Positions 4,868-43,671 of a stretch of DNA of 64,000 nucleotides are shown here, piece after piece. The stretch is from Gluconacetobacter aggeris (lineage in GTDB: Bacteria > Pseudomonadota > Alphaproteobacteria > Acetobacterales > Acetobacteraceae). The translations under genes were made by a program, and so were the position numbers. Within the stretch, counting starts at the first letter, position 1. Each line of letters begins with the position of its first letter. The stretch is taken from the NCBI RefSeq assembly GCF_014174395.1, contig NZ_JABEQD010000009.1:62001-126000 (forward strand), in the 5' to 3' direction. The notes under the pieces are model-generated. The model was not told the DNA's origin, ran no database searches, and was given only the letters and a program-made list of their open reading frames with translations.

Positions 4868-4911
4868 ATCGTTTCTCGTCCAGGTGACAGTTGCGGATGA
4901 AAAAACCCGGT

Positions 4912-6582
4912 TCAGAACGTGGCCTGCACGCGCCCGGCGACGGCATTGCCCGTCCGGCCCAGCAGGTTCACCCCGCCGGACACACCCTTCGATCGGGTGA
5001 CGATGAAATGGTCGAAATCCAGCATGAACTTGAAATGCTGGTTGGGATACCAGTTCAATCCCCCCGCCCAGACCGTCTGCTGGTTGCCGTTGACACCCAC
5101 CCCGCCCTGGTTGGCGACATCGGACAGGTCCGCCACGCTCCAGCGGCCGCTGAGTTCCAGCGCGCCCCAATCGCCGCGCGCCGGATCGAAATCATGCTCG
5201 ACCCCCGGCGTGGTGAAGGCACCGGTCTTGACGTTGTATCCACGCCCCCGGCCGAACAGCGTATAGTTGGCCGCGACATACCACCCGTCGAAATTCAGCG
5301 ACGGCAGCGGAGACGCCCCGGCATTATGCCCGCGCTCCACGCCCACATGGTAATATTCGCCCTTCAGCAGGAATTTCCGCCAGCGGAAGGCCAGTTGCGG
5401 ACCGGCCGCCCAGATCTGGGACACATTGCTCAGCGCCCCCGATGTCAGCAACGAGGTCTCGCCCAGCGGCACCTCCATATTGTCGCTGAACGTATAGGTA
5501 CGGCCGCTCGAATTCTGGTTGACCTTGAAAGCGCTGGTCGCGCCGGCCCCGACATGGACGTCGATATCCTTGCTCACATAGGGCCGGCCGACGATGCGGG
5601 CCACCGCGCCGGTCTGGCTGTCGGTAATCGTCGTGTCCTTGTTCCGGTCGCCGAACTTCTGGCCGGTGAAATAAGCGGCCGCCTGCCAGCGGTTTTCATA
5701 ATGCTCGCCGCCGATGCTGAAGCGTGCGACGCCGCCCGCCAGGTTGCGCACCAGATCGATGATGGTCGGGCGCTCGAGGAACTCGAACGACGAGGCCCGC
5801 TCCGCGCTTTCCTCTTCCATGCGGGGCTGGAAATAGCCCACGGTCAGCGTGGTATGATGCAGGCCGGTATAGTTCATGTTGGCCTCGAACAGGCTGACCG
5901 ACCCGTCCACCGAGCTGGAGCCGAATTCCGGCGTGACGTTCGCCACCCAATCCTTGTAGCGCCAGGAGAAATAGATCCGCAGGCGCCGGGCATTCTGGGT
6001 GAATTTGTTGAAATTGCCGGCCCCCTCGCCCCGCCTGGGCCCGGCGCCGAGAAAGCCCCCAAGATCCTCCATCGCCGTCAGGCCGAGCGAGAAGCTGTAT
6101 GCGCCATCCTCCGACGAGATCGTGGGCCGCCCGGCCGGAAAACCGATCCGCATCCCGCCCACATGCACGGTCTCGTCCCGCGCGGTCGCGGCCCGGATCT
6201 CGGCCCAGGACGGAATCGGCCCTTCCGGGGTGATCAGGCGCGTCTCGGCATCCGTGCGGGGCCGATGCGTGGCGGCCGGTCCCCGCGGTTCCCCGATCGC
6301 GGGCAACGGACCACCGGCCCAGCGATGCGCATGGACGACACGCGGCGCCCCCTCCCCATCATGGCCGGCGGAGGCGGGCACGGCCCGGCCCTCATCGCGG
6401 GCGATCCGCGCCTGCAGCACCCGGATCTCGTCCCGCATCTGGCGCTGCATCTCCCGCATTTCACGCCGCAATGCCGTGATTTCGTCATCCTGCGAAGCCG
6501 CCTCCGCCAGAGCCGGCAGAAAACTGGTGGACAGGGCCGTTGCCAGGGCAAGCACGCGCCGGACTTTGAAACCTTCTTTCAT
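4912..6582 (-). CDS. Outer-membrane porin of the OprO/OprP type, first gene of the sulfate operon
   Basis: The 556-residue protein has a signal peptide (ALATALSTSFLPALAEA). Next comes a coiled-coil-like charged stretch (residues about 32-65, ITALRREMREMQRQMRDE) typical of periplasmic trimerisation segments, then a long beta-barrel region with aromatic-rich alternating strands. It ends in the outer-membrane signature AGRVQATF with a terminal phenylalanine. The barrel blocks resemble phosphate-selective porins O and P. Because it heads the sulfate operon, I infer that it passes sulfate or organosulfur anions. A decayed relative of its gene lies just upstream (6876-7163). Confidence 0.82.
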   Translation of the reverse strand: MKEGFKVRRVLALATALSTSFLPALAEAASQDDEITALRREMREMQRQMRDEIRVLQARIARDEGRAVPASAGHDGEGAPRVVHAHRWAGGPLPAIGEPRGPAATHRPRTDAETRLITPEGPIPSWAEIRAATARDETVHVGGMRIGFPAGRPTISSEDGAYSFSLGLTAMEDLGGFLGAGPRRGEGAGNFNKFTQNARRLRIYFSWRYKDWVANVTPEFGSSSVDGSVSLFEANMNYTGLHHTTLTVGYFQPRMEEESAERASSFEFLERPTIIDLVRNLAGGVARFSIGGEHYENRWQAAAYFTGQKFGDRNKDTTITDSQTGAVARIVGRPYVSKDIDVHVGAGATSAFKVNQNSSGRTYTFSDNMEVPLGETSLLTSGALSNVSQIWAAGPQLAFRWRKFLLKGEYYHVGVERGHNAGASPLPSLNFDGWYVAANYTLFGRGRGYNVKTGAFTTPGVEHDFDPARGDWGALELSGRWSVADLSDVANQGGVGVNGNQQTVWAGGLNWYPNQHFKFMLDFDHFIVTRSKGVSGGVNLLGRTGNAVAGRVQATF

Positions 6583-6875
6583 GTTCTACGAACCCTCGAC
6601 CCAGCACACGCAGGCACATTTCACGATATTTTTCGCATTTAATGCGAACCGCAATGATCGATGACACGTTGTAATTTAACGGTCAATAGAGACATAAAAG
6701 TCATTGACTGTTTTTGTTCGTTTAATTCGGACAGTTCCCGAGCGAAAACACGGATATTCCACTATTTTTATAGTTATTATCCGTCTATGAAGGCGACCTC
6801 AGGATGGCCGGCCCTCACCCCGAAGAGGTATGGGCAGGCGGCACGTCCCACCCGGTATCCCACCCAAAAAACGCC
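6583..6875. promoter_or_regulatory. Upstream region of the sulfate operon
   Basis: This 293-base AT-rich stretch separates the porin start from the porin remnant and should hold the minus-strand promoter of the sulfate operon. It is locally rich in T and A tracts (6660-6785). I see no clear consensus promoter pair or binding site that I could assign, and no protein-coding frame on either strand that looks real. Confidence 0.35.
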
Positions 6876-7163
6876 TCAAAAACTGGCCTGGACCCGCCCC
6901 ACGACCAGATTGCCGGTCCGTCCGAACAGATTGACCCCGCCAGCCCCCCCCTTCGACCGGGTGACGATGAAATGGTCGAAATCCAGCATGAACTTGAAAT
7001 GGCGGTTGGGGTACCAGTTCAGGCCCCCCTGCCAGACTGTCTGCTGGTTGCCGTCAACCCCCACGCCACCCTGGTCGGCGACATCGGACAGATCCGTGAC
7101 GCTCCATCGCCCATTGAGTTCCAGCTCGCCACCGACGCTGAAGCGCGCTGCCACGTCATCCAT
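6876..7163 (-). pseudogene. Porin remnant with a large internal deletion
   Basis: This 95-codon frame matches the C-terminal barrel of the porin at 4912-6582 nearly residue for residue (GRWSVTDLSDVADQGGVGV, HFKFMLDFDHFIVTRSK, ending GRVQASF). Its first residues, AARFSVGGE, correspond to the porin's VARFSIGGE. In the intact gene that block is followed by HYENRW and lies some 170 residues before the point where similarity resumes at LELNGRWSV. The frame therefore records a second porin gene that lost its signal peptide, N-terminal half and an internal segment. It has no plausible signal peptide and its ATG abuts the aceA terminator, so it is almost certainly non-functional. Confidence 0.8.
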
Positions 7164-7199
7164 AAAAAAAGCCCGGCCTCCATCAGGAAGACCGGGCCA
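7164..7199 (-). terminator. Rho-independent terminator of aceA
   Basis: Read on the minus strand, a GC-rich stem (GCCCGG-TCTTCC, loop TGAT, GGAGG-CCGGGC) is followed directly by seven T residues. It lies about 60 bases after the isocitrate lyase stop codon in the correct orientation. This is a textbook intrinsic terminator. Confidence 0.9.
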
Positions 7200-7257
7200 G
7201 CAGTTTCAATAACCGTTATTGCTTGTTCTTATTCCGCAACGCCAGGGGGTGCCGGCT

Positions 7258-8853
7258 TCAGCCGAACTGCCCCATGGTGTTATGCGCGCCGCCGGCCTTC
7301 AGCGCCGCTTCGCCGGCGAAATACTCCTTGTGATCGTCGCCGATGTCCGAGCCCGCCATGTTCTGGTGCTTGACGCACGCGATCCCCTGGCGGATCTCCT
7401 CGCGCTGGACGTTCTGCACGTAACCCAGCATCCCCTCCTCGCCGAAATATCTCTTGGAGAGATTGTCGGTCGACAGCGCCGCCGTGTGATAGGTGGGCAG
7501 CGTGATCAGGTGATGGAAGATGCCGGCCCGCTTCGACGCATCCCGCTGGAACGAGCGGATGCGCAGGTCGGCCTCCGTCGCCAGTTCGGTCTCGTCATAG
7601 CTCTGCGCCATCAGCTTCGCGCGGTCATACGCCGTCACGTCGCGCCCTTCTTCCTTCCAGGCATCATAGACCTGCTGGCGGAAATTGAGCGTCCAGTTGA
7701 AGGACGGCGAGTTGTTGTAGACCAGCTTGGCATTCGGCACGGCGTCGCGGATACGGTCCATCATGCCGGCAATCTGCTCGATATGCGGCTTTTCCGTCTC
7801 GATCCACAGCAGGTCGGCGCCATTCTCCAGCGCGGTGATGCAGTCCAGCACGCAGCGATCCGCACCGGTTCCGTGACGGAACTGGTAGAGGTTGCTGGGC
7901 AGCCGCTTCGGACGCAGCAGCTTGCCTTCGCGGGCAATGATCACGTCGCCATCGCGCACGGTGCCGTCGGTCACCTCTTCGCAATCCAGATAGGCATTGT
8001 ACTGGTCGCCCAGATCGCCCGGCTGGCTGCTATAGGCGATCTGCTTGGTCAGGCCCGCACCCAGGCTGTCGGTGCGGCAGACGATCACACCGTCTTCCAC
8101 CCCCAGTTCCAGGAACGCGTAGCGGACAGCGCGCACCTTCGCCAGGAAGTCCTCATGCGGCACCGTGACCTTGCCGTCCTGGTGGCCGCACTGCTTTTCG
8201 TCCGACACCTGGTTCTCGATCTGGATGGCGCAGGCACCGGCCTCGATCATCTTCTTCGACAGCAGGTAGGTCGCCTCGGCATTGCCGAAACCCGCGTCGA
8301 TATCGGCGATGATCGGCACGATATGGGTCTCGTGATTGTCGATCTTCGCCTGGATCTCGGCCTCGCGCGCCGCATCGCCGGCTTCACGCGCGGCATCGAG
8401 GTCGCGGAACAGCCCTCCCAGCTCGCGGGCATCGGCCTGGCGCAGGAAGGTGTAGATTTCCTCGATCAGCGCCGGCACCGCCGTCTTCTCATGCATCGAC
8501 TGGTCGGGCAGCGGGCCGAATTCCGAGCGCAGCGCGGCGACCATCCAGCCCGACAGATACAGGTAGCGGCCCTTCAGCGACCCGAAATGCTTCTTCACCG
8601 AAATCATCTGCTGCTGCGCGATGAAACCGTGCCAGGCCCCCAGCGACTGGGTGTACTGCGCCGGATCGGCATCATAGGCAGCCATGTCCTGGCGCATGAT
8701 GGCAGCCGTGTAGCGCGCGATGTCCAGCCCGGTCTGAAAACGGTTCTGCAGGCGCATGCGCACGACATAGTCGGGATTGATCCCGCCCCAGGTGCCCTGC
8801 TTGGCCTGGATGATCTGGTTGAGCTTGGCGGTTGCCGATTCCTGATATGACAT
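7258..8853 (-). CDS. aceA: Isocitrate lyase (glyoxylate shunt)
   Basis: Isocitrate lyase splits isocitrate into succinate and glyoxylate, allowing growth on acetate or fatty acids. The 531-residue protein belongs to the longer subfamily known from Pseudomonas, not the 434-residue E. coli form. The catalytic loop reads DEKQCGHQDGK, where E. coli has KKCGH. Other family blocks are IIADIDAGFGNAEATYLL, CRTDSLGAGLTKQIA and LVYNNSPSFNWTLNFRQQ. It appears monocistronic: its own terminator follows, and a palindrome lies about 100 bases upstream. No malate synthase gene is in the window. Confidence 0.96.
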   Translation of the reverse strand: MSYQESATAKLNQIIQAKQGTWGGINPDYVVRMRLQNRFQTGLDIARYTAAIMRQDMAAYDADPAQYTQSLGAWHGFIAQQQMISVKKHFGSLKGRYLYLSGWMVAALRSEFGPLPDQSMHEKTAVPALIEEIYTFLRQADARELGGLFRDLDAAREAGDAAREAEIQAKIDNHETHIVPIIADIDAGFGNAEATYLLSKKMIEAGACAIQIENQVSDEKQCGHQDGKVTVPHEDFLAKVRAVRYAFLELGVEDGVIVCRTDSLGAGLTKQIAYSSQPGDLGDQYNAYLDCEEVTDGTVRDGDVIIAREGKLLRPKRLPSNLYQFRHGTGADRCVLDCITALENGADLLWIETEKPHIEQIAGMMDRIRDAVPNAKLVYNNSPSFNWTLNFRQQVYDAWKEEGRDVTAYDRAKLMAQSYDETELATEADLRIRSFQRDASKRAGIFHHLITLPTYHTAALSTDNLSKRYFGEEGMLGYVQNVQREEIRQGIACVKHQNMAGSDIGDDHKEYFAGEAALKAGGAHNTMGQFG

Positions 8854-9237: not shown

Positions 9238-9256
9238 AGCAGACGGTTTTCCTGTT

Positions 9257-9774
9257 CGATTCATCCCCGCGTGGGTGGGTGAACATGCTGCGCCGGGCGA
9301 CCGCGCATGCCCGGAGCCCGGTTCATCCCCGCGTATGCGGGGAACACGGCATGGGGCGGCAGGCATCGCACGCTCAGATCGGTTCATCCCCGCGTATGCG
9401 GGGAACACGCAAAGGCGGATCAGCTCTGCAACCGGATGGACGGTTCATCCCCGCGTATGCGGGGAACACGGCGGCAGGGCGCATGCGGCGACGCTCGAGG
9501 CCGGTTCATCCCCGCGTATGCGGGGAACACTTCGCGACATGCCAGTCCGATGCCAATGCCCGCGGTTCATCCCCGCGTATGCGGGGAACACGACTGCATG
9601 AGCATGTTGATCGCGGCCGGATTCGGTTCATCCCCGCGTATGCGGGGAACACTTCAGGACTCTTTGCCCCAGCCGTCGCAACGGCGGTTCATCCCCGCGT
9701 ATGCGGGGAACACGCAGGCTGGCGCTGATCGGTATCGATCTCGATCGGTTCATCCCCGCGTATGCGGGGAACAC
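9257..9774 (-). CRISPR. CRISPR array 1, type I-E, 8 intact repeats plus 1 degenerate terminal repeat
   Basis: Eight identical 29-bp repeats start at 9319, 9380, 9441, 9502, 9563, 9624, 9685 and 9746, with 32-bp spacers. A degenerate ninth repeat lies at 9257-9286. Read on the minus strand the repeat is GTGTTCCCCGCATACG then CGGGGATGAACCG, with a CCCCGC/GCGGGG stem and loop ATAC. The decayed repeat marks the trailer end, so the leader is at the high-coordinate side next to cas2 and the array is transcribed leftwards. Confidence 0.98.
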
Positions 9775-9846
9775 TCTTCCATCAAACAATTGATATAAAA
9801 CACCTATTCCCTTGTCAAAAATTCTACCGACCAAAGAGCCCTCGTT
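9775..9846 (-). promoter_or_regulatory. Leader of CRISPR array 1 with promoter and IHF-like site
   Basis: The 72 bases between the cas2 stop and the first repeat contain, on the minus strand, TTGACA (9813-9818), a 17-base spacer and TATCAA (9790-9795). The overlapping TATCAATTGTTTG fits the IHF consensus WATCAANNNNTTR and ends about ten bases before the first repeat. The sequence is clearly similar to the leader of array 2, including the same TTGACA-N17-TATCAA spacing. Confidence 0.7.
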
Positions 9847-11128
<1,282 letters not shown>

Positions 11129-11139
11129 AGCCTGCGTTG

Positions 11140-11823
11140 CTATCCCGTGCGGCGGATCAGCATCAGGCCGCAACCAAAGGTGCGTGCCCGCCCGAACCCC
11201 CGCGACAAGGTCGCGACAAATTCCGCAGGCTCCCTCACCGTCAGATCCCCCGTCAGATCAATGACGCCGAACGATGCACGAGCGCCTCCAGGGCGCGCAA
11301 TCCGCAGAACATCGTAGGCCCCGACTTCAACAGGCACAGCCGGTACAAAGCCGGCGCGCGAGCCCTGCCGCTCCAGCCAGGCTGCCGCCGCGCCGGCCAC
11401 CGCGTCGGCACGGGCCGACGCACGTTGGTCCCTTGGCAGATGATGAAGCACATCCATCACCACGTCATGCCGCTGGCTGCGCGTCTTGCCCGGCATCTTG
11501 CGATCGACCGTGGCATTCGCCCGCAACAGGAAACGCAACCGGTCCCCCTCGCGTAGCACCGGAGCAAACGGACGACTCTCGATCGTAAACAGCCCATGCG
11601 TATCCACGGGAGGCCGGGCGGACAGGACCATATAGCGACCGGGCTCCACCTGCCGCCAGAGAAAGTCGCGGTCGCGGTCAGGTCTATCGCCAAACAGGGC
11701 CCACAGCAGATGATGCGCGGCACCATGTTGCAGCGCCTGCCCTTCTGGCACCAACAGGCGGGCAAATGCCTGCACCGGCGCGTCGCGCCGCAAGGCGACG
11801 CGCGAGAGAAAGGGCGACATCAT
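11140..11823 (-). CDS. cas6e: crRNA-processing endoribonuclease Cas6e (CasE)
   Basis: Cas6e cuts the repeat hairpin to release crRNA and stays bound in Cascade. The 227-residue protein has the likely catalytic histidine in HHLLWALFGD, and the closing block GFGRARTFGCGLMLIRR, a signature of the family. It starts with two ATG codons (MMSP); the first overlaps the cas5 stop as ATGA. It must process repeats from both arrays, which differ by one loop base. Confidence 0.94.
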   Translation of the reverse strand: MMSPFLSRVALRRDAPVQAFARLLVPEGQALQHGAAHHLLWALFGDRPDRDRDFLWRQVEPGRYMVLSARPPVDTHGLFTIESRPFAPVLREGDRLRFLLRANATVDRKMPGKTRSQRHDVVMDVLHHLPRDQRASARADAVAGAAAAWLERQGSRAGFVPAVPVEVGAYDVLRIARPGGARASFGVIDLTGDLTVREPAEFVATLSRGFGRARTFGCGLMLIRRTG

Positions 11824-12608
11824 GACTCTCCCTTCGCACCCGGCACCAGCACGGCCTCTTCCCGTAAAGCAAATTGCCAGCGTGTCCGCGAAAGTGGCTG
11901 GTCTCGCCGGACTTCGCGCCGTAGCACAGGGGCGCCTCCCCCTTGTCGCGCCACATCGGCCGTATCGAGAACCAGCAGCGGCCGCGCGCCTCGCACCCGC
12001 ACACGCCCCGCAAGCTGCTCGCGGAAAGAGCCGCTACGAACCCTCAACCGCGCCTCCGGCCCCGTATCATGCCGGTCCATCAATACGTCTGCCGCCGTCC
12101 CGCCACTGATCAGAATGGGTGCGAGAGGAAGACCCAGCGGACAGGAACGACGACCCAGGGACGGGGTAAATACGGGCGCAGCCATCGCGGCCGCAATGGC
12201 TTCCAGCGTCCAGCGCGGCGCGTCCACCCGGGACCATAGCGCCCCAAGATGCCATGCTCCGGTGCGATAATCCCGACGGGAGAGGATCGTGGCCAGACCT
12301 TCCGCCGGGCCTGACAGTTCCTCGGCCCGCGTTGCCGGCCGCCATCCGCGTCGCGCCGGCGCTGTCTGGGTCGTATGGTAATCCGTCATCGGTTCTCCGG
12401 GCGCATGACACAACATGGCCAGCCCGTATTGAGCTGCCAGCGCCGACTGCGCTGCCTCATCCTCGCGCGTCAGGCCAAGGCAGGCCGCAACCAGCCCCAA
12501 CACACCCGACCGCGCCGGACGATCCCAGCCCTCACGGCGTTCACCCACTGCCAGAGCACCGAACGAGGCGACGGGCGCCACCATAGCAAAGGTCAGAAAA
12601 CGGGCCAT
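11820..12608 (-). CDS. cas5e: Cascade subunit Cas5e (CasD)
   Basis: This subunit binds the 5' handle of the crRNA in Cascade. Of about 262 residues, the start MARFLTFAMVAPVASFGA is the typical beta-strand opening of Cas5e. Further marks are PMTDYHTTQTAP and the LSRRDYRTGAWHLGALW region. The start at 12608 is eight bases after cas7; an in-frame extension to 12686 lies within cas7 and is not homologous. The stop overlaps cas6e. Confidence 0.92.
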   Translation of the reverse strand: MARFLTFAMVAPVASFGALAVGERREGWDRPARSGVLGLVAACLGLTREDEAAQSALAAQYGLAMLCHAPGEPMTDYHTTQTAPARRGWRPATRAEELSGPAEGLATILSRRDYRTGAWHLGALWSRVDAPRWTLEAIAAAMAAPVFTPSLGRRSCPLGLPLAPILISGGTAADVLMDRHDTGPEARLRVRSGSFREQLAGRVRVRGARPLLVLDTADVARQGGGAPVLRREVRRDQPLSRTRWQFALREEAVLVPGAKGES

Positions 12609-18915: not shown

Positions 18916-20834
18916 AAGAATATCCCCGTGTGAGGGGAACACGTGTTCCGGATATTGGCGACACCGCGATCCACCAGTTGATCCCCGCGTGTGCGGGGAA
19001 CACTGCGTGTCCAGGATGTTGATCGGTGCCAGCCACGGTTCATCCCCGCGTGTGCGGGGAACACCCGATCGCCGGGTTGATCGCGAGGATGGCACCCGGT
19101 TCATCCCCGCGTGTGCGGGGAACACCATTTTCCGCCACACGACTGCTATGTCGAGCCCGGTTCATCCCCGCATGTGCGGGGAACACAAGTGGTAGGCCGA
19201 CATCGTGTCGTAGGCCGCCGGTTCATCCCCGCGTGTGCGGGGAACACGCGTGATCGGCCGTGCGCCCCAGCCCGTCGATCGGTTCATCCCCGCGTGTGCG
19301 GGGAACACCTATACGCGCGCGTCATGCCCGATCGCGCTACCGGTTCATCCCCGCGTGTGCGGGGAACACGGACGTCAGCATCAATGCGGCGCCGTTGGTG
19401 GTCGGTTCATCCCCGCGTGTGCGGGGAACACTGGCCAATGGTACGACTCCACCACTCGCGCTGCGGTTCATCCCCGCGTGTGCGGGGAACACGGTCAAGA
19501 GAGAAAAGGACCCAGACAATGACGCGGTTCATCCCCGCGTGTGCGGGGAACACAGGAAACGCTGCTGGATATTTACCGTCGGGCCCGGTTCATCCCCGCG
19601 TGTGCGGGGAACACCCATCCTCGCGCGTGGCGCCGACATAGGAGCCCGGTTCATCCCCGCGTGTGCGGGGAACACGATGGCATTCGTGTCATCACCTATG
19701 CCGAGCGCGGTTCATCCCCGCGTGTGCGGGGAACACGGCGATTTCGGACTGGAGGGCGGCAACAGCGGCGGTTCATCCCCGCGTGTGCGGGGAACACGCC
19801 TGGATCGAGCACCGCAATCATCGCCTGGTCGGTTCATCCCCGCGTGTGCGGGGAACACATGCGGCGCGTCTGCTCCTGAAGCTGGTTCATCGGTTCATCC
19901 CCGCGTGTGCGGGGAACACCTAGTGACGCTCTCAAATAATACCGGGGCGCCCGGTTCATCCCCGCGTGTGCGGGGAACACAGAACCAGCCAAATTCCGGC
20001 ACACCTGGGCGCCGGTTCATCCCCGCGTGTGCGGGGAACACTCCTGCACTTCCGGGGGAAGGCGTCCCTGCTCCGGTTCATCCCCGCGTGTGCGGGGAAC
20101 ACCGGTCGGGTCCCGCTGGCCGACTGCGAGCGAGCGGTTCATCCCCGCGTGTGCGGGGAACACTGCTCCATCACGGCCGCGCACATCGAGAACGTCGGTT
20201 CATCCCCGCGTGTGCGGGGAACACACGATCTTGATGAACTCATCCAGCGGAACGGCCGGTTCATCCCCGCGTGTGCGGGGAACACTGATCGGCGCGCTGA
20301 ACGTGCTGGCCAACGTCCGGTTCATCCCCGCGTGTGCGGGGAACACGCCAAGACCGTCCGCATCCATGCTGATGGCTCCGGTTCATCCCCGCGTGTGCGG
20401 GGAACACGCTACGGCCGCATGGCGCGGCGTGACGTTCTACGGTTCATCCCCGCGTGTGCGGGGAACACAATGCCCGCCTTGACCAGGATGTTGATCAGCT
20501 CGGTTCATCCCCGCGTGTGCGGGGAACACATTATGTTCGAAAATGGACGATGCATTTATCCCGGTTCATCCCCGCGTGTGCGGGGAACACTGACAGCGTT
20601 TCGGGTCGAGGCGCCGCGTGCTCGGTTCATCCCCGCGTGTGCGGGGAACACGGTCGCGAATAGCGTTGGTGGCACTGGGATTGCGGTTCATCCCCGCGTG
20701 TGCGGGGAACACATATAGTCGGCCTCACTCCATACGAACCGGTCCGGTTCATCCCCGCGTGTGCGGGGAACACCTGACGAAATCCGCGATCGTTTTCTTT
20801 CTCGCCGGTTCATCCCCGCGTGTGCGGGGAACAC
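18916..20834 (-). CRISPR. CRISPR array 2, type I-E, 32 repeats (31 spacers)
   Basis: The 29-bp repeats recur every 61 bp from 18975 to 20806, with one 33-bp spacer at 19370-19402. A shortened, degenerate repeat lies at 18916-18942. The repeat differs from array 1 by a single base in the hairpin loop (minus strand ACAC instead of ATAC). The repeat at 18975 has two changes and that at 19158 one; all others from 19036 on are identical. Decay at the low-coordinate end marks the trailer, so newest spacers are near 20800. Confidence 0.98.
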
Positions 20835-20900
20835 TCTTCCCAGAGCGCATTGATATTAAAAGGCTATTCTCATGTCAAAGATTCCACCGATGATAGAGCG
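20835..20900 (-). promoter_or_regulatory. Leader of CRISPR array 2
   Basis: On the minus strand this segment has TTGACA (20873-20878), 17 bases, then TATCAA (20850-20855), placed 15 bases before the first repeat, exactly as in array 1. The immediate flank (GGGAAGA before the repeat) matches array 1's TGGAAGA. The IHF-like match is weaker here (ATCAATGCGCTC). The 240 bases to its right, up to the dioxygenase gene, hold nothing else I recognise. Confidence 0.65.
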
Positions 20901-21975: not shown

Positions 21976-21984
21976 TCCGCCCCC

Positions 21985-24123
21985 TCAGAACGTCGCCGTC
22001 AGGCTCAGATTGTACGAGCGCCCCAGTCCGGGCAGCGCCCCCAGCACGCCCGTCGCCCTGTAATCGCCCAGCGAAAGCCCCCCGAGCGGCAGATCATATT
22101 TCTGGTCCAGCACGTTATCGATGCTGGCATCGAGCGTAAGATTCCGCCACCGATAGCTCCCGCCCAATTCCAGCAATGCATAACCCGGCGTGCGCGGCTC
22201 ATGCCGCAGCCAGTCGACCGTGTCCTTGGCCTTGACCAGCGTCACCTCGACGCGACCGGTCCAGTTCTCATAAATCTCGTGCAGCGCGACCGTGCCGTTG
22301 GCCGGCATCTGATGATAAAGGCCGGAATGCGTCACCAGATCCTGCCCGCGCACCCAGTTGAGGTTGGCCTGCACCTCGCCGGTGCCGAACGCGTCGCTCC
22401 GCCATAGCCGCGCAAAGGCCGAGCCGTTGATGCCGTAGCTCCGCGCATCGTGGTTGACGAACTGCAATTGCGACAGGCCGTTCGAAAGCGCCCCGATACG
22501 CATCACGTTGATATAATGATGCGTGTATGTGTAGTAGGGCTGGATTCTCACCAGCCACGCCTGATCGCGCGGATCATGCCACGTGATCGTCATGCTGGCG
22601 GTATTGGCAATCTCCGGCGTCAGGCCCAGATTGCCGACATAGCCGTTCCCGTCGCCGAACCAGCCGATCATGCTGCTCGCCATCGCCCCCCTGCCCCAGG
22701 CATAACGTTCGTACAAATTGGGCGAGCGCGTCTTGCGCGCATACCCGCCCTCGACCATCAGACTGTCGAGCGGATGCCAGCGCACCAGCGCCGTGACATC
22801 GAAATTGGTATCGGTCCGCCCGCGCGAGGCCGCATTGAACCGCCGCGCCGCCATGATATCGGCCATGCTCATCATCCCGGTCCAGGAATAGGGCGCGACC
22901 GGGCCGGTATTCATCATCACCAGGTCACTGCGCATCCCCAGTTCGGTGGACAGGCGCGGCAGCCATTGCGCCTTCCATTCGATGTAATGGCCCAGCCGGT
23001 CCCGATACCCGTTATTGACGTTATGATAGGTATCCGGCCCCATCATCATGCTGCCCGCCAGCGGCGGCCACCAATCGTTCAACCCGTTATGGTCGAACGA
23101 ACTCCCCAGGCCCAGCTCATGGCGCCGGCCAAGCGGAATCGTCGCCTTGATCGCATAACCCGCCGTCCGCGCATCGGTATTCATCGGCATACCGGTCGAG
23201 GCCGTATGCCCACCCTTGTCCGACATCATGTCCATGACATGATCCACCCGTTGCCAGAATCCCCGCGCCTCCAGCGTGCCCCAGTCGAAATCGCCCTTGT
23301 ACTTTCCGTTCACGAAGGTCGACCGGTTGTTGGTCATATCCATGTATTGATTCGGAAAACCCTCATACGGAATATCCTGCTGCCCGACCGTCAGCGCCAG
23401 CAGATGATTGTCCTTGTGCACGCCCAGCGTGACGGCATGGTTGAAGCTCAGATAACTGGTCGACCGCACGCGCGGCCCGTCACCGCCGGCATGGTAATCG
23501 CCGGCATGGCTGTAGGAGCCGGTATAGCGCAGGCTCAGCAGGTCGTTCGCCACCGTCACCGAGCCCGACGCGCCGGACCCGCCTCCATTGCTGCGATAAT
23601 CTCCCCGCAGCCGGCCGGTGACGAGAAGCGCCCCGGCCTTGGCAAATTGCGGATCGCGCCGCTCGACCGAGACCGTCCCTCCGGTACTGTCACCCCCCTG
23701 GCTGACCGAGGTGATCCCGGCGGTGGCGACTACCGACGCCACGCTGTCCGGATCGATATAGGACATCGCCGGATTCATGTGATTGGGACAGGCCGAGGCA
23801 ATCCGCATCCCGTCCACAAAGGTCGCCACCCGGTCATCCGCCATCCCGTTCAGCACCGGCAGCGCCGACACGCCGCCGGCCGCATAACTGCTGAACCCCA
23901 ACGCATGAGACAGCAGGGCACTCGTATCCGCACTATGCCCCGCCGGCCGCCGCACGCCATTGACGGTAATGAACTCGCCCGCCGTTCCGGCAGACGAGGA
24001 TCGAGAGGATATCGGCGCGGACACGGCCTGGTCGGCCCGGGCAGGAACAACGGTCAACCCGCCGGCGACGGCCCAGCCGCACGCCACGGCACCGATCCAC
24101 AGGGACCGGACATGATCTGTCAT
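21985..24123 (-). CDS. TonB-dependent outer-membrane receptor, OprC/NosA-like (probably copper)
   Basis: A TonB-dependent receptor of about 712 residues. The signal peptide is WIGAVACGWAVAGGLTVVPARA, followed by a plug (FITVNGVRRPAGHSADT, VATFVDGMRIASACPNHMNP) and a 22-strand barrel ending YNLSLTATF. The ACPNHMNPAMSYIDP motif, and the many methionine- and histidine-rich stretches (MSDKGGH, MMMGPDT, MMSMADIM), are features of the copper receptors OprC/NosA. A DUF2946 protein lies just upstream on the same strand, a common companion of these receptors. Start at 24123 (MTDHVRSLW) with AGG nine bases before it. Copper is an inference. Confidence 0.85.
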   Translation of the reverse strand: MTDHVRSLWIGAVACGWAVAGGLTVVPARADQAVSAPISSRSSSAGTAGEFITVNGVRRPAGHSADTSALLSHALGFSSYAAGGVSALPVLNGMADDRVATFVDGMRIASACPNHMNPAMSYIDPDSVASVVATAGITSVSQGGDSTGGTVSVERRDPQFAKAGALLVTGRLRGDYRSNGGGSGASGSVTVANDLLSLRYTGSYSHAGDYHAGGDGPRVRSTSYLSFNHAVTLGVHKDNHLLALTVGQQDIPYEGFPNQYMDMTNNRSTFVNGKYKGDFDWGTLEARGFWQRVDHVMDMMSDKGGHTASTGMPMNTDARTAGYAIKATIPLGRRHELGLGSSFDHNGLNDWWPPLAGSMMMGPDTYHNVNNGYRDRLGHYIEWKAQWLPRLSTELGMRSDLVMMNTGPVAPYSWTGMMSMADIMAARRFNAASRGRTDTNFDVTALVRWHPLDSLMVEGGYARKTRSPNLYERYAWGRGAMASSMIGWFGDGNGYVGNLGLTPEIANTASMTITWHDPRDQAWLVRIQPYYTYTHHYINVMRIGALSNGLSQLQFVNHDARSYGINGSAFARLWRSDAFGTGEVQANLNWVRGQDLVTHSGLYHQMPANGTVALHEIYENWTGRVEVTLVKAKDTVDWLRHEPRTPGYALLELGGSYRWRNLTLDASIDNVLDQKYDLPLGGLSLGDYRATGVLGALPGLGRSYNLSLTATF

Positions 24124-34847: not shown

Positions 34848-34975
34848 TCTTCTTTTGTCTTCCGAAAAAGAAGCAAAAAGACTTTTATCCGTTCAGGGCC
34901 GTCCCATACCCCAGCAAAAAACTCCAGAACGAATCAGAGTTTTTTGGTTCTTTTTTTCAGAAAAGAACATCCTTC
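34848..34975. repeat. Dispersed AT-rich hairpin repeat (family 1, copy B)
   Basis: The element shows a left hairpin around TCTTCCGAAAAAGAAGCAAA, then the conserved segment AAAGACTTTTATCCGTTCAG, CCCCAGCAAAAAACTCC and AGAGTTTTTTGGTTC. It ends with a T-run/A-run hairpin (TTCTTTTTTTCAGAAAAGAA). It is closely similar to the copy at 43538-43672 and in the same orientation. It fills the gap between the LysR stop at 34976 and the FUSC start. Confidence 0.8.
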
Positions 34976-39049: not shown

Positions 39050-39201
39050 CTCCACCACAGCGGCAGCAATCGCCGGAATATGATCGCACGACCTCGGTAA
39101 AATAAAAATTAGGCGCATCTTCGCCTAACCGATGCTCTCTACGGAAGAGCAGGCAAAAACGCGCCGGACCGGAAAAGCGCTTGCAAGGGATGGAAACAGG
39201 C

Positions 39202-40464
39202 ATGAACGACATGGCAGCCGCACCGGCGACGATCACAGGACAGGCGCAGACCTACGACGTGGCGACCTCCCGCCATGTGGTCGCGGCCTCGCTGCTGGCA
39301 TGGCTGCTCGATGCCTGCGATTTCTTCATCGTGCTGTTCACGCTCGACGATGTCGCCCGCAGTTTCCACGTCTCGCTGCAAAGCATCCTGCTCGCCCCGA
39401 CGCTCACCTTGCTCACCCGCCCGATCGGCGCCTTCCTGTGCGGACACGCCGCCGACCGGTACGGGCGCAAACCGGTCATGATCGCCACCATCATCGTCTA
39501 TTCCGCGATCGAGATCCTGTCCGCCTTCGCCCCCAACCTCGCCATCTTCCTGCTGCTGCGCACGTTGTTCGGCGTGGCGCTGGGCGGCGAATGGGGCGTG
39601 GGCACGTCGCTGATCATGGAGAGCATCCCGCCCTCATGGCGCGGCACCGCCTCGGGCATCCTGCAGGCCGGCTACCCGGCCGGATACCTGCTGGCGTCGC
39701 TGGTCTTCCTGCTGCTGCCCTTCGTCGGCTGGCGCGGGCTTTTCATCCTCGGCGGCAGCGCCCTGCTGGCGGCCGTCTATATCTGGCTGCGCGTGCCCGA
39801 AAGCCCCGAATGGCTGCGCCGCCGGCACGACCAGGCCGCCCGCGCCACCAGGCCCCCCGGCCTGTGGTTCATCGTCCGCAACAACGCGGCACTGTGCGTC
39901 TTCGCAATCACCCTGATGGCCGCCTTCAATTTCATGAGCCACGGCTCGCAGGACCTGTATCCCAAGATCTTCCTGGGGCTGGAACGCCACCTGCCCCATC
40001 CCTCCATCACGCTGATCGTGGTGCTCTACAACATCGCCGCCATCGTCGGCGGCCTGTTCTTCGGCGTGCTGTCGCAGAAGATCAGCCGCCAATACAGCAT
40101 CGCCCTGGCCGCCCTCCTCACACTGCCCTTCCTGCCACTGTGGGCGCTCTCCCACTCCCCCTTCTGGCTCGCCGTCGGCGCCGTCTGCATCCAGTTCTGC
40201 GTCCAGGGCGCCTGGGGCGTCGTCCCCGCCTATCTCAGCGAACTCTCCCCCGCCTCGGTCCGCGCCACCTTCCCCGGCCTCGCCTACCAGTGCGGCAACC
40301 TCATCGCCGCCAGCAACGCCCTGCTCCAAACCGCCCTCGCCACCTGGTTCGGCACCGGCCTCGCCCCCGCCATGATGCTCACGGTAGGCACCGCCGCAAC
40401 GGTCGTCCTGACCCTGATCCTCCTCAACGCCCGCCTGTACGGGCGTTACCGACCCATTCAATAA
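39202..40464 (+). CDS. MFS transporter (sialate/lactate:H+ symporter-like)
   Basis: A protein of about 420 residues with twelve predicted membrane segments. It has the MFS loop 2-3 motif GHAADRYGRKP, FGVALGGEWGVGTSLIMESI and PPSWRGTASGILQAGYPAGY, a set typical of the SHS/NanT-JEN1 branch. The substrate is likely a small organic acid but cannot be fixed. I chose ATG 39202 (MNDMAAAPAT) with GGA upstream; ATG 39190 is an alternative. It follows the OprB porin by about 150 bases and may share its transcript. Confidence 0.88.
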   Translation: MNDMAAAPATITGQAQTYDVATSRHVVAASLLAWLLDACDFFIVLFTLDDVARSFHVSLQSILLAPTLTLLTRPIGAFLCGHAADRYGRKPVMIATIIVYSAIEILSAFAPNLAIFLLLRTLFGVALGGEWGVGTSLIMESIPPSWRGTASGILQAGYPAGYLLASLVFLLLPFVGWRGLFILGGSALLAAVYIWLRVPESPEWLRRRHDQAARATRPPGLWFIVRNNAALCVFAITLMAAFNFMSHGSQDLYPKIFLGLERHLPHPSITLIVVLYNIAAIVGGLFFGVLSQKISRQYSIALAALLTLPFLPLWALSHSPFWLAVGAVCIQFCVQGAWGVVPAYLSELSPASVRATFPGLAYQCGNLIAASNALLQTALATWFGTGLAPAMMLTVGTAATVVLTLILLNARLYGRYRPIQ

Positions 40465-40534
40465 AGAGCAGCCATATCGTTCGAAGACATGTCGGCTTAC
40501 GCCCGCATGTGAGACATTGTTACGTATCATAAAG

Positions 40535-40549
40535 CCGTCCAAAAGCTGA
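40535..40549 (+). repeat. Left copy of a 15-bp direct repeat bounding the AT-rich island
   Basis: CCGTCCAAAAGCTGA here is identical to 42575-42589. Both are followed by (C/T)AT and preceded within a few bases by ATCAT. The two copies lie close to the points where base composition returns to that of the host genome. Confidence 0.75.
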
Positions 40550-40891
40550 CATGAACTAACAAGGTGCCGGACTTGGCTCGGTGTACTGCCGCCAATAAGA
40601 ATATGCACGAGCGGTTGTCTCTTATATTATAAATTACACAATTAATATAGAATTTAACTGTTTGTTGTGCACAGTCAGAGAGGGACAGTAAAATAAAATA
40701 TTACGAGAAAATTCAAAAATTTTTGAATAATTATTTTACATTTACTAATTACTTTTGTTAATTCATTATATTTATACTAAATATTTTTATTTACCGTTTA
40801 GTGCGCCAACTAAATAAATTCACATATTTTATAGTGAAATAAATTGCATGGATGTTATTTGAAACTAATTCATTTTGCGCCAGATTACTTT

Positions 40892-40927
40892 ATATCAAAA
40901 TGGTGCCCTAGGCTATCATTTTGATAT
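40892..40927. promoter_or_regulatory. Perfect 11-bp inverted repeat before the first island gene
   Basis: ATATCAAAATG, 14 bases, then CATTTTGATAT. It ends some 5 bases before the AAAGGAAA ribosome site of the gene at 40944. A dyad in this place is the usual form of an autoregulatory operator; an RNA hairpin masking the start region is the alternative. Confidence 0.5.
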
Positions 40928-40943
40928 GTGAAAGGAAAATTAA

Positions 40944-41615
40944 GTGCACATCAGAATTAGGTGTATTAGTGACCTGCCGGTCGAAGAGTGCAATAATATT
41001 GCAGATTCTTTTTCTCCCCTCGGATCGACTGATGTTTTCTGCGCACAGCCTGGTCCACAGCAAATAGTGAATGAACTACTTCCTGCTGTATTCACAGTCG
41101 CTTTAACCGAGATTGCAGGAGGATTTCTAAAACAAATCGGCGCAGATCTGGAGAAAGATCTAAAAAACGCGCTCATCAAATTATTTCGACGTGGGCGCGA
41201 ATTACCAACTGATTGGTATCGAAGCGGCTCCGAACGCCGGGAACCAAGCTTATCTATACCTAGTCAGCATGAAAAAAAGCCGGAAGCATACGCTAGCTCT
41301 CCTCCGCTAAGGGTGGAAGCTTCGTTAGGACAACTAGGAGAGGCAAAATTTATATTTCCTGCGGAGCTTTATGCTGAGGCGATGGAAACGGCAATATCGA
41401 CGATGCAAGGTAAATTGATTTTTCTCCAACAATTCGTCAATGATTTTTGTCTTCAGGAGCAGATTAAGCAGAGCGCGCCAGAACGTTATTTTGGCAAGAT
41501 GCCGCTTGAAATGGTTCGACAGCGCTTGATGTACGAACGAGTTAACGCAAATAACTTGCTTCTAAAACCCTATATATACACTATTGAATCAAAAACGTGG
41601 GTTGGAATAGGTTAA
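40944..41615 (+). CDS. Island protein 1, unknown function
   Basis: A 223-residue protein starting with GTG and preceded by AAAGGA at good spacing. Codon use is AT-rich and unlike the neighbours. The N-terminus (HIRIRCISDLPVEEC, DSFSPLGSTDVF) looks like a mixed alpha/beta segment. Then comes a hydrophobic/amphipathic helix (LPAVFTVALTEIAGGFLKQI) running into a charged helix (ADLEKDLKNALIKLFRRGRE). The C-terminal half (EAMETAISTMQGKLIFLQQF) is predicted helical. I recognise no family and no catalytic motif. It lies between the direct repeats with island protein 2. Confidence 0.7.
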   Translation: MHIRIRCISDLPVEECNNIADSFSPLGSTDVFCAQPGPQQIVNELLPAVFTVALTEIAGGFLKQIGADLEKDLKNALIKLFRRGRELPTDWYRSGSERREPSLSIPSQHEKKPEAYASSPPLRVEASLGQLGEAKFIFPAELYAEAMETAISTMQGKLIFLQQFVNDFCLQEQIKQSAPERYFGKMPLEMVRQRLMYERVNANNLLLKPYIYTIESKTWVGIG

Positions 41616-41679
41616 TTTAAAGGTATCTTTCTAATAATTTCATCCAAGAAGCGACATAATTGTTCCAATTAGTCTAAAT

Positions 41680-41708
41680 TGCCTGTCTCTGCCTGTGGAT
41701 GACAGGCA
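41680..41708. other. Inverted repeat between the two island genes
   Basis: TGCCTGTC and GACAGGCA form a perfect 8-bp stem with a 13-base loop, 65 bases after the first gene stops. There is no T run after it on the plus strand, so it is a weak terminator candidate at best; it could also be a protein-binding dyad. Confidence 0.4.
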
Positions 41709-41865
41709 AGCAATAACCGCCTCTTTTCAGTCATTTCGATGATGTTTGCAACCCTTCGAAAGCGGCTTTTGTGGAGAGATATTTGCGATTACAAAATAAA
41801 TTCTGCTAGACTACGTTGTGTCAATGTTGTTGATATCCGTCTATATTGAAATATGGAATTAGATA

Positions 41866-42471
41866 ATGATCCGCCTCACAGTGCTAAATCCTCTTTTAAC
41901 GAGTATGCGCAATCAGGGAATTACGAGGTGTGTATTTCGATATAGACGAGGAGAAGTTCAGTTTTCTGTAGTGTTCACTACAGAAACAAACAACGCTTTA
42001 TATCCATTAGCTTTACTTTTTGGGTTTTCTGGTCCACCTACGTTTGCATTCATTTTTTTTGGAGATAATAATCTGAATTTCTCCACATTCTTGGAGAGTG
42101 GTGAGTATAAAAAACTTTGCAGCATACTTAACCTGAAATATGATCCCAATAATAAATTCTCACCTGCAGAATTTTTGAGAAATTTTGCAGGAAGTGGTCA
42201 AATACCTCAGCAAGTATCTCCGACTATGATTCCAACACCAGATCAGGTGCCTGCGCCTGCACGTTACGTTTCAGACGCTGATCGTCCTTATTTTAGTAGG
42301 TGGATGTACTTGCCTGAAGGCAATCAGGTAAGCGATGCCAACTATAATCGAACTCTTTTCTCTTTTGGTTTGCAATGTGCCACCTTTTGCAGGAATCAAA
42401 GAATTTCTTCATGTTGGACAGCCGTACAGCCCAACGAGCCAAATTACGATCCACCTCCTAACATGCCGTAA
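41866..42471 (+). CDS. Island protein 2, unknown function (possibly DUF6037-like)
   Basis: A 201-residue, AT-rich gene. The opening, LTVLNPLLTSMRNQGITRCV-FRYRRGEVQFSVVF, followed by LALLFGFSGPPTFAFIFFGD, recalls the DUF6037 pattern of a short helix, 'SM--QGI-R--F-Y', and a beta-rich core; this is from memory and tentative. The C-terminal part is rich in proline (QQVSPTMIPTPDQVPAPARY, ending PNYDPPPNMP). No signal peptide or catalytic motif. It has its own possible promoter upstream (TTGCGA ... TAGACT near 41785-41815). Confidence 0.65.
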   Translation: MIRLTVLNPLLTSMRNQGITRCVFRYRRGEVQFSVVFTTETNNALYPLALLFGFSGPPTFAFIFFGDNNLNFSTFLESGEYKKLCSILNLKYDPNNKFSPAEFLRNFAGSGQIPQQVSPTMIPTPDQVPAPARYVSDADRPYFSRWMYLPEGNQVSDANYNRTLFSFGLQCATFCRNQRISSCWTAVQPNEPNYDPPPNMP

Positions 42472-42690
42472 TTACTAGAGAGAAACACCTTTAACCTTCA
42501 ACGAGGTTTCGTATCTGCACAAAAAACATCCACAGTGGGCGTCAATACAATGAATATCTGCTTCTTAGATCATCCCGTCCAAAAGCTGATATTCCGCTCT
42601 CCCCGCCAAGCGGCCATGTTTGCAAAGGGTCTAGCCACGTAATGCAGGCAACGGGCATGGGTCACCCCACGCCCGTTTCCCATCCCGAGT
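42472..42690. other. Right flank of the AT-rich island
   Basis: These 219 bases contain the right direct repeat and return to host-like composition after about 42590. I see no gene here. The stop of the YmdB-type gene (minus strand) lies at 42691. Confidence 0.5.
42575..42589 (+). repeat. Right copy of the 15-bp direct repeat bounding the AT-rich island
   Basis: Identical to 40535-40549 in the same orientation, giving a unit of about 2.05 kb from repeat to repeat. GC-rich host sequence follows directly. Confidence 0.75.
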
Positions 42691-43506
42691 TCAGAAATCC
42701 GGCATCGTAGGCGCCAACAATCCGCCCATGCGCAGCGGCGCCATCCGACGAGCCAACCCTGTAGCATCATCGGTTTCCACCATCATGCCCGCCACCGTCG
42801 CCACCCCTTCCGCCGGCTGCAACCGCTCACCGGGCATCCGGCGCAGGAAGCGCGCAATGGCCGCATCCTTGCCCATGCCGATCACACTGTCATAATCCCC
42901 ACACATGCCCGCATCCGTCTGGTACGCCGTGCCACCGGGCAAAATGCGATGGTCGGCCGTAGGCGTATGGGTATGCGTGCCCACCACCAGCGAAGCCCGC
43001 CCATCCAGCACATGCCCCATCGCCCATTTCTCGCTCGACGCCTCGGCGTGGATATCCACCACCACCGCATGCACCGTCACCCCCAGCCGATGCCGGGCCA
43101 TGATATCGGTCACGGCGCGGAACGGATCATCCAGCGCCTCCATGAACTGTCGCCCCATGACGTTGATCACCAGCGCCTTGCGCCCGTCCACCAGTTCCAC
43201 CACCACACTGCCCTGTCCGGGCGTGCCGGGCGGATAATTGGCCGGGCGGATAATGCGCGGCTCGGCATCGATCTGGCCGACCAGATCCTTGCGATCCCAC
43301 GCATGGTTCCCCAGCGTCACGACATCGACGCCAGCCGCAAACAGGTCACGGGCGATGGGCAGCGAGAGGCCGAACCCATGGCTCGCATTCTCGCCATTCA
43401 CCACCACCAGGTCCAGGCGCAGATCCCGCCGCAGAGTGGGCACCGCCTCCATCACCGCCTCGCGCCCCGTGCGGCCGACAATGTCGCCCAGAAACAAGAT
43501 CCGCAC
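42691..43506 (-). CDS. YmdB-type metallophosphoesterase
   Basis: A metallophosphoesterase of the TIGR00282/YmdB family, about 271 residues. Metal ligands are in ILFLGDIVGRTGR, VVNGENASHGFG, TLGNHAWDRKD and VGTHTHTPTADHRILPGGTA. Bacillus YmdB acts on 2',3'-cyclic nucleotides and affects biofilm decisions; here the substrate is not known. The family start (M/VRILFLGD) suggests the GTG at 43506 with GGAA upstream; the ATG at 43539 adds eleven residues bordering a repeat element. Downstream on the same strand as the folate and ZapA genes. Confidence 0.9.
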   Translation of the reverse strand: MRILFLGDIVGRTGREAVMEAVPTLRRDLRLDLVVVNGENASHGFGLSLPIARDLFAAGVDVVTLGNHAWDRKDLVGQIDAEPRIIRPANYPPGTPGQGSVVVELVDGRKALVINVMGRQFMEALDDPFRAVTDIMARHRLGVTVHAVVVDIHAEASSEKWAMGHVLDGRASLVVGTHTHTPTADHRILPGGTAYQTDAGMCGDYDSVIGMGKDAAIARFLRRMPGERLQPAEGVATVAGMMVETDDATGLARRMAPLRMGGLLAPTMPDF

Positions 43507-43537
43507 CCGTTTTTCCTTCTTCCACTTTGGGGCCGCC

Positions 43538-43671
43538 ATCCTTCTTTTTCTGAAGAAAAAGAAGCAAAAAGACTTTTATCCGTTCAGGGACATCGTATGT
43601 CCCCAGCAAAAAGCTCCCGAACAGATCAAAAGTTTTTTGGTTCTTTTTTCCAAAAAAGAACAGAAAACCCC
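43538..43671. repeat. Dispersed AT-rich hairpin repeat (family 1, copy C)
   Basis: This is the best-preserved copy. It has a left hairpin CTTCTTTTTC-TGAAG-AAAAAGAAG, the shared core AAAAAGACTTTTATCCGTTC and CCCCAGCAAAAAGCTCC, and a right hairpin GTTCTTTTTTCC-AAAAAAGAAC. It lies between the YmdB-type gene start and the stop of the cyclo-ligase gene, just 3' of the latter like the other copies sit 3' of minus-strand genes. Confidence 0.8.

Follow-up and report, generated by a model that had tools for sequence, protein, structure and literature searches.

The AT-rich island at about 40504-42607 of the window, the 64,000-nucleotide stretch of Gluconacetobacter aggeris DNA analysed in this study, appears to be a discrete mobile unit with recurring ends, and the chromosomal spot that it occupies carries differing cargo in related genomes. 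It is probably one of a genus-wide set of small cassettes that share conserved ends and are moved in trans. The island (40503-42590) has a GC content of 0.391; its 1-kb flanks reach 0.674 and 0.629, and the value for the whole window is 0.652. An earlier note, made from the letters alone, had described the island as the only AT-rich block of the window and as an inserted accessory cassette without an integrase or transposase. All of this was borne out: every 1-kb stretch away from the island has a GC content of at least 0.56, neither of the two island genes has a relative in the 13 congeners, other cargo stands at the spot in relatives, and neither gene matches a recombinase family.

The chromosomal neighbours of the island are an MFS transporter gene on the left (39181..40464, + strand; Pfam MFS_1, E 1.2e-38) and a gene for a YmdB-like phosphoesterase on the right (42691..43539, - strand; Pfam YmdB, E 8.4e-99). 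The YmdB gene was found in all 14 genomes of the genus. An ortholog of the MFS gene lies beside it in G001, G007, and G009, and is so judged from contig ends in G005 and G010; in the remaining eight congeners this MFS gene is not beside YmdB, and these genomes are uninformative on the hot spot. The gap between the two genes is filled with differing DNA in five genomes and is nearly closed in one (G009). In the sister species G001, the gap measures 4.2 kb with a GC content of 0.465 and contains a DRT8 anti-phage system; the genes in the gap encode Drt8 (E 3.8e-159), the PD-(D/E)XK partner (4.1e-67), and a Schlafen AlbA_2 protein, the DRT8 pair and the Schlafen-like gene together occupying positions 4750-8250 of locus L017 at the orthologous hot spot. 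In G007, the gap is 1.4 kb long and contains a gene for an AAA-like ATPase, whose matches are sub-threshold, and a 146-aa ORF that matches no Pfam family. A ParA-like gene followed by the contig end was found in G005; of the two contigs concerned in G010, one has an MFS gene and the other a gene for an acyltransferase. In addition, a dispersed repeat of about 122 bp occurs in the window at 34849-34969 and 43541-43662 (85% identical) and also in G001, G007, and G009.

The borders of the island were compared with those of the relatives. On the left, the core ATGTCGGCTTACGCC (40489..40503, + strand) comprises about the last chromosomal bases common to the relatives, and homology with G001, G005, G007, and G010 stops at 40503-40517. 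A like core is present at the MFS side in G000, G001, G005, G007, and G010 and before the LysE cassette in L103; when the junctions of the window, G001, G005, G007, and G010 were read side by side, the core at the MFS side was about GTCSGCTTNCGCC. The left end of the cassette (40504..40561, + strand) contains an outer box at 40510 and the inner box AAGCTGAC at 40543-40550. The inner box occurs without mismatch 38-39 nt from the left junction in the window, G010, G007, and the LysE cassette and with one mismatch in L183, and was not found in the left ends of G001, G005, and L175. The right end is a 35-bp palindrome, ATCTGCTT-N19-AAGCTGAT (42556..42590, + strand), which is followed by the right core ATTCCGCTCTCCCCGCC (42591..42607, + strand); by eye, most of the sites inspected have a comparable core after the palindrome. 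On the YmdB side, the window and G001 have a 34-35-bp palindrome and then a core, as do, in degenerate form, G007 and G010; the YmdB-side contig of G005 begins without a palindrome. Homology on this side resumes at 42576 for G010, at about 42670 for G001 and G005, and at 42690 for G007. The palindrome spacer is 18-19 nt long in 12 of 13 palindromes and 17 nt in the other one.

Many arrays of such sites carry, by eye, a second hairpin, TGCCTGTCCGCTC-loop-GAGCAGACAGGC, plus GTCGCC between the core and the next left end; L105, the shorter loop of which was misplaced by the aligner, was excluded from the hairpin count, as were the L178 and L171 junctions, which are diverged or have no second hairpin. 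Folding of the single-stranded DNA was better than that of shuffled sequences for two of three junctions (z -2.4 and -3.6; third junction, -1.3). Covariation counts were null for both palindromes and thus give no support for pairing or for selection on it.

The direct repeat by which the island had been recognised, the 15-mer CCGTCCAAAAGCTGA, is present on the same strand at 40535..40549 and 42575..42589 (+), as the earlier note had claimed, and stretches to 18 bp with one mismatch. Three matches with up to two mismatches occur in the window against 0.07 expected. A reversed control pattern has 2 matches in the 4.32-Mb genome, likewise the number found for the 15-mer with up to one mismatch (both island copies), so that the 15-mer is unusual by its closeness to both breakpoints and not by its copy number. 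Homology with relatives ends close to the 15-mers, not at them (left, 40478-40517; right, 42576-42691). The first copy overlaps and contains the inner box of the left end; the second consists of spacer bases and the right arm of the palindrome and contains most of this arm, AAGCTGAT. Each copy is a recurring AAGCNGA end box with adjacent bases, not an attachment core, and the extra identity CCGTCCAA between the copies may be due to chance or to gene conversion between the ends. It is thus very improbable that the island was inserted site-specifically by an integrase that has since been lost, the 15-mer serving as its attachment core or representing a duplicated target. An exact repeat near both breakpoints without a third copy in the genome speaks for such an origin; against it, the left 15-mer begins 31 bp inside the left junction, half of the 15-mer is a box recurring at other cassette ends, and the 15-mer is absent, with up to three mismatches, from the hot-spot junctions of the relatives scanned, the three matches found among them all lying in G008 away from these junctions. 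The 15-mer was rejected as an attachment core on account of its overlap with the recurring box and its absence from the relatives' junctions. An empty site with a single 15-mer, which had been named as proof of insertion, was not seen in G009, where the 15-mer is absent; since the two gene matches of G009 are just 18 bp apart, this says little in either direction. No clean empty site was seen in the congeners compared at the hot spot.

The palindromic ends recur throughout the genus. In the genome that contains the window, a pattern search revealed a pair of perfect 34-bp palindromes on another contig, with 4.4 kb between them. The first sites were chosen by their palindrome arms and later regions by score and clustering, and a covariance model, R1, was built from 13 sites and run on the 14 genus genomes, with 150 candidates per genome scored and with rough E-values. 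R1 matches were obtained in all 14 genomes. By our own tally, 25 bits or more are reached by 86 listed matches at 85 places, and near relatives such as G003 and G004 have places in common. Thirteen of the places belong to the model and two others hold copies of the LysE site, so that 70 remain. The palindrome of the window, at 53.4 bits, is the best R1 match of the genus but is itself part of the model. The MFS-side contig of G005 carries a site outside the model (25.7 bits) 1.6 kb from the MFS gene and oriented as in the window. Beyond the genus, 13 of 26 loci from other genera of the family, preselected by a palindrome pattern, gave a full-length match of at least 25 bits, and the best match in 26 loci of other genera chosen for DUF6037 (284 kb) reached 12.3 bits. 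Plain patterns discriminated weakly: GTCNGCTTN{17,20}AAGCNGAC gave 71 matches in 47 of 249 family genomes against 36 matches in 18 genomes for the reversed control, 18 of the control matches lying in one genome, and, within the genus, GTCNGCTTN{5,35}AAGCNGAC matched 20 places spread over 11 genomes, compared with 14 for the control.

The composition beside the sites was then considered. A GC content below 0.58 was found on the cassette (upstream) side of 16 of 25 sites outside the model and on the other side of 7 of 24, which is no clean control because in arrays the next cassette stands there; the background frequency is 8.1% of 3,438 overlapping windows. Among the model sites, such a value was found on the cassette side in 10 of 13 and on the other side in 2 of 12. 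Rfam searches yielded nothing, and no paper describing these cassette ends was found in the open-licence literature searched. Cassettes without a transposase and integron cassettes are both familiar; the present set of ends, with the varied accessory genes linked to it, is apparently a novel form of such cassettes.

Movement of a unit together with its end is seen for a LysE-family gene, which occurs with an end site at unrelated loci in G000, G010, and G011. The cassette is 1,014-1,015 bp long and 98.4-99.5% identical inside in all three pairs, and the 300 bp on either side show 55-57% identity in all three pairs, as does unrelated DNA. GCC or CGCC immediately precedes its start, and its end comes directly behind the palindrome plus TGTCCGTTCCC. 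Since the collection holds one genome per species, the copies represent three species. No target-site duplication was visible by eye at the three LysE junctions. Searches against plasmids gave no match for the window island and, for the LysE cassette, partial matches in 9 records, none of which covered more than 80% of the cassette.

Six junctions between orthologous flanks were compared at other places. The break coincides with the core in three of them (left in G010/G011, right in G002/G006, and right in G005, L100), and three have no clear core break (left in G002/G006, left in L100/L178, and right in L175/L182, where homology resumes 70-100 bp past the sites). It could be argued that such places are passive hot spots, at which REP-like intergenic palindromes stand and foreign DNA enters by illegitimate or flank-homologous recombination, as in minimal mobile elements. 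The conserved flanks with varying content, the half of the compared junctions without a clear core break, and the frequency of palindromic repeats in alphaproteobacteria (according to PMC3733652) are consistent with this explanation. It is unlikely all the same, because the ends form a specific family and the LysE unit keeps its end when it moves from one set of flanks to an unrelated one.

Regions surrounding sites that scored high or were clustered, twenty in all, were scanned and drawn, eight opposite-strand matches at kept places and six other matches being excluded from the drawing. In each of the 11 loci with at least two kept sites, the sites point the same way; one kept site (L170), 11 kb further along the L169 contig, points the other way. 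Of the six other matches excluded, three have the direction of their neighbours (L181 4425, 16.2 bits; L175 11030, 15.5 bits; and L177 4678, 13.8 bits) and three the opposite direction (L170 13571, 14.7 bits; L183 10071, 14.2 bits; and L182 533, 13.4 bits). Transposition would not usually produce same-direction arrays joined at one core. Such arrays therefore weigh against the view that the cassettes are non-autonomous transposons, i.e. mobile insertion cassettes that have inverted ends with two boxes about 34 nt apart and a transposase acting in trans. What favours transposons is that the inner and outer boxes are inverted at both ends and 33-35 nt apart in the window and the LysE cassette (by eye) and that the LysE cassette occurs at three loci. 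We nevertheless consider this view rather unlikely, given that no target duplication was apparent by eye at the three LysE copies and that each DDE transposase family matches just 1 of the 25 proteins on the cassette side.

Few genes lie between adjacent sites, and some arrays have segments of one or two genes. The segments encode a GmrSD-like 583-aa protein with a 170-aa protein (L167), a TIR-like protein (L175), a ParA-like protein (L171), and a CoA-transferase family protein (L174, with a homologous segment in L178), among others. The ThsB protein of Thoeris was identified in L176 (5.3e-138), and the one long ORF between the two 34-bp palindromes in the genome of the window is MkoC of Mokosh (PADLOC, E 6.5e-252). 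Elsewhere in the genus, exact palindromes adjoin LeoBC/LeoA (L100), a type IIG restriction enzyme (L101), and GajA plus GajB of Gabija (L106). Metabolic genes stand beside sites too, and genes for LysE, CoA-transferase, and aldehyde dehydrogenase are present as well. Of nine site-neighbouring proteins scanned, six had a PADLOC match (one of them weak, 5e-6) and three had none; of 10 further proteins, five had a match. PADLOC families, counted as families and not as proteins, match genes on both sides of the sites, because in arrays the other side is the next cassette, and the matches on the cassette side are consequently no strong argument. A special link of the sites to defence is at most suggested. 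By eye, the genes past the Mokosh cassette (L081 13928-17665) resemble a cluster with a QueC-type protein. In L106 of G011, positions 10241-12160, beside the Gabija genes and a site, are 81% identical to 21979-23898 of the window, where no Gabija-like island was noticed.

The two genes of the window island are intact, as had been described. ORF1 (40944..41615, + strand) starts with GTG and encodes an orphan protein of 223 aa; ORF2 (41866..42471, + strand) encodes 201 aa. The statement that neither belongs to a recognised family holds for ORF1 and fails for ORF2, which is a DUF6037 protein (PF19503, E 6.6e-20): it scores 72.4 bits against a Pfam gathering cut-off of 28.8, and its residues 4-194 align to positions 3-193 of the 200-position profile. 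For ORF1, no family was found in Pfam, PADLOC, NCBIfam, or PHROGs and no match in the PDB, and relatives are absent from plasmids and, in searches for close relatives, from viral contigs and genome contigs. Among 397 genomes of the family searched, ORF1 was found in one (its own genome) and ORF2 in two. Relatives of ORF2 in Gluconobacter and in another genome of the family are 55-58% identical. An imperfect palindrome with 18-nt arms, 83% complementary, lies just 5' of ORF1 (I3, 40892..40927) and is possibly an operator. A further inverted repeat, CGTCTATATTGAAATA / TATTTCGATATAGACG (I4, 41838..41948; 94% complementary, 79 nt apart), spans the start of ORF2.

The earlier note had suggested that the two genes could form a compact accessory system, such as anti-phage defence or a toxin-antidote pair. 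This suggestion is not supported: none of the 26 other DUF6037 loci, several of which are near-copies of each other and some of which have less than 2 kb upstream, carries an ORF1 relative, and co-occurrence of ORF1 and ORF2 was ruled out on this count. ORF1 and ORF2 are probably not one system, and because these loci have no ORF1 relative, ORF2 most likely works independently of ORF1. A two-gene defence or toxin-antidote system is accordingly improbable. The ORFs are adjacent, on the same strand, and alone in the cassette, and DRT8 stands at the same spot in G001; besides the missing ORF1, a 250-bp gap separates the two ORFs and neither has a PADLOC match. PADLOC gave 0 families at E up to 1 for either ORF, that is, no known anti-phage system. 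The suggested defence role is plausible through company alone, namely DRT8 at the same spot in G001 and the defence genes beside some sites. Judged by this company, ORF2 could be a gene for defence or for competition between elements, a possible assignment that falls clearly short of a probable one.

The distribution of DUF6037 is patchy and mobile. It adjoins the relaxase gene of a Gluconobacter conjugative plasmid, occurs in plasmid records of Bacillota, Pseudomonas, and Proteus (the Proteus record being chromosome-sized) and also in viral contigs, and lies beside what is apparently, by eye, the terminal part of an HsdR gene. It also forms, by eye, a single-gene cassette between attC-like sequences in Halomonas, Amphritea, and Denitrificimonas. 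Pairs of the form ATAACAA...GCGTTATG adjoin DUF6037 by eye in L065, L066, and L067 and are presumed by us to be attC; a strict attC scan was negative beside DUF6037 in L065 and in its vicinity in L067. In all three loci, DUF6037 is apparently a single-gene integron cassette, and the L065 and L067 proteins are very alike by eye. ORF2 thus belongs to a family that is found elsewhere without ORF1, in integron-like cassettes, plasmids, and viral contigs. The name DUF6037 was absent from the literature searched.

Integron cassettes are small, unrelated in content, and often composed of one gene; they form same-direction arrays, carry imperfect palindromes, and encode no internal enzyme. The cassettes described here resemble them in being small and varied, in their same-direction arrays, in the palindromes at the joints, and in the lack of an enzyme inside. 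They differ in that the genes often point against the site and the longer junctions carry two palindromes. The attC consensus is RYYYAAC and GTTRRRY; no such pair 50-160 nt apart was found on either strand in 40401-42800, and a canonical attC was ruled out for the window island. Mobile insertion cassettes, in turn, consist of passenger genes between inverted ends, without a transposase; the present cassettes are similar in having passenger genes and no transposase and, in the window and the LysE cassette, inverted boxes at both ends. In contrast to them, no parent element with these ends was seen in the loci examined, no target duplication was seen by eye at the LysE junctions, and tandem arrays are formed at one core. 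REP palindromes, which include the CGTC-tagged REPs, are short intergenic palindromes of alphaproteobacteria; the CGTC-tagged ones have loops of 4-5 nt and, as stated in PMC3733652, are missing from Acetobacteraceae. The palindromes of this study are likewise short, intergenic, and alphaproteobacterial, whereas their spacers are 17-19 nt long and they are tied to island ends; the stem with a 4-5-nt loop that PMC3733652 describes was not found, and this identity was rejected.

With regard to the enzyme, no relative of one integron-type integrase (from L065) was found in 48 genus loci (784 kb), which would be another difference from integrons, and the recurring ORFs among 187 ORFs with a GC content below 0.62 from 39 loci include no recombinase, LysE, ParA-like, and helicase-like proteins and others being those that recur. 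Relatives of large serine recombinases are present in 3 of the 48 loci, L167 (71-1756), L179 (2924-4726), and L081 (2265-3752), at most about 5 kb from cassette sites, and these genes are candidates for the missing enzyme. We lean to a site-specific recombinase because the cassettes stack in one direction at one core; the inverted boxes at both ends would suit a transposase too. The preferred model can be outlined as follows. Cassettes without a recognised recombinase would end on one side in a 33-35-bp palindrome and then a core (about NTTCCGCTTNCSCCC), and would begin directly behind a comparable core, in many cases with an outer and an inner box in inverted orientation. We infer that an enzyme acting in trans would recognise the boxes and join cassettes at the core. 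Cassettes would be collected much as integron cassettes are, and cells could swap accessory genes in this manner, some of them anti-phage. ORF2 would then be a stand-alone accessory gene, possibly for defence or for competition between mobile elements, and ORF1 would travel in the cassette as a passenger unrelated to it. Several observations count against this model: apart from the serine recombinases of three loci, no dedicated recombinase was found near the sites in the loci searched; no clean empty site was seen; the YmdB-side contig of G005 starts without a palindrome; three of the six junctions lack a clear core break; covariation gives no support for pairing; PADLOC matches stand on both sides of the sites; and the inner box is absent from the left ends of G001, G005, and L175. 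More tentatively, and more doubtful than otherwise, Acetobacteraceae may possess an integron-like system in which a site-specific recombinase encoded elsewhere excises, exchanges, and stacks palindrome-plus-core cassettes, often with a second hairpin between adjacent ones, as a shared store of accessory genes, including anti-phage genes; the window island would be one of these cassettes. If the model is right, the ends provide a sequence handle for defence and other accessory genes, single-gene cassettes included, for which the sequence of the gene itself is not needed, and the question arises as to which enzyme moves cassettes that carry no recognised enzyme of their own. Apart from the island, the window contains CRISPR-like arrays at 9251-9775 and 18924-20840 with a 61-bp period and the repeat CGGTTCATCCCCGCGTGTGCGGGGAACAC, which we take to be like those of type I-E.
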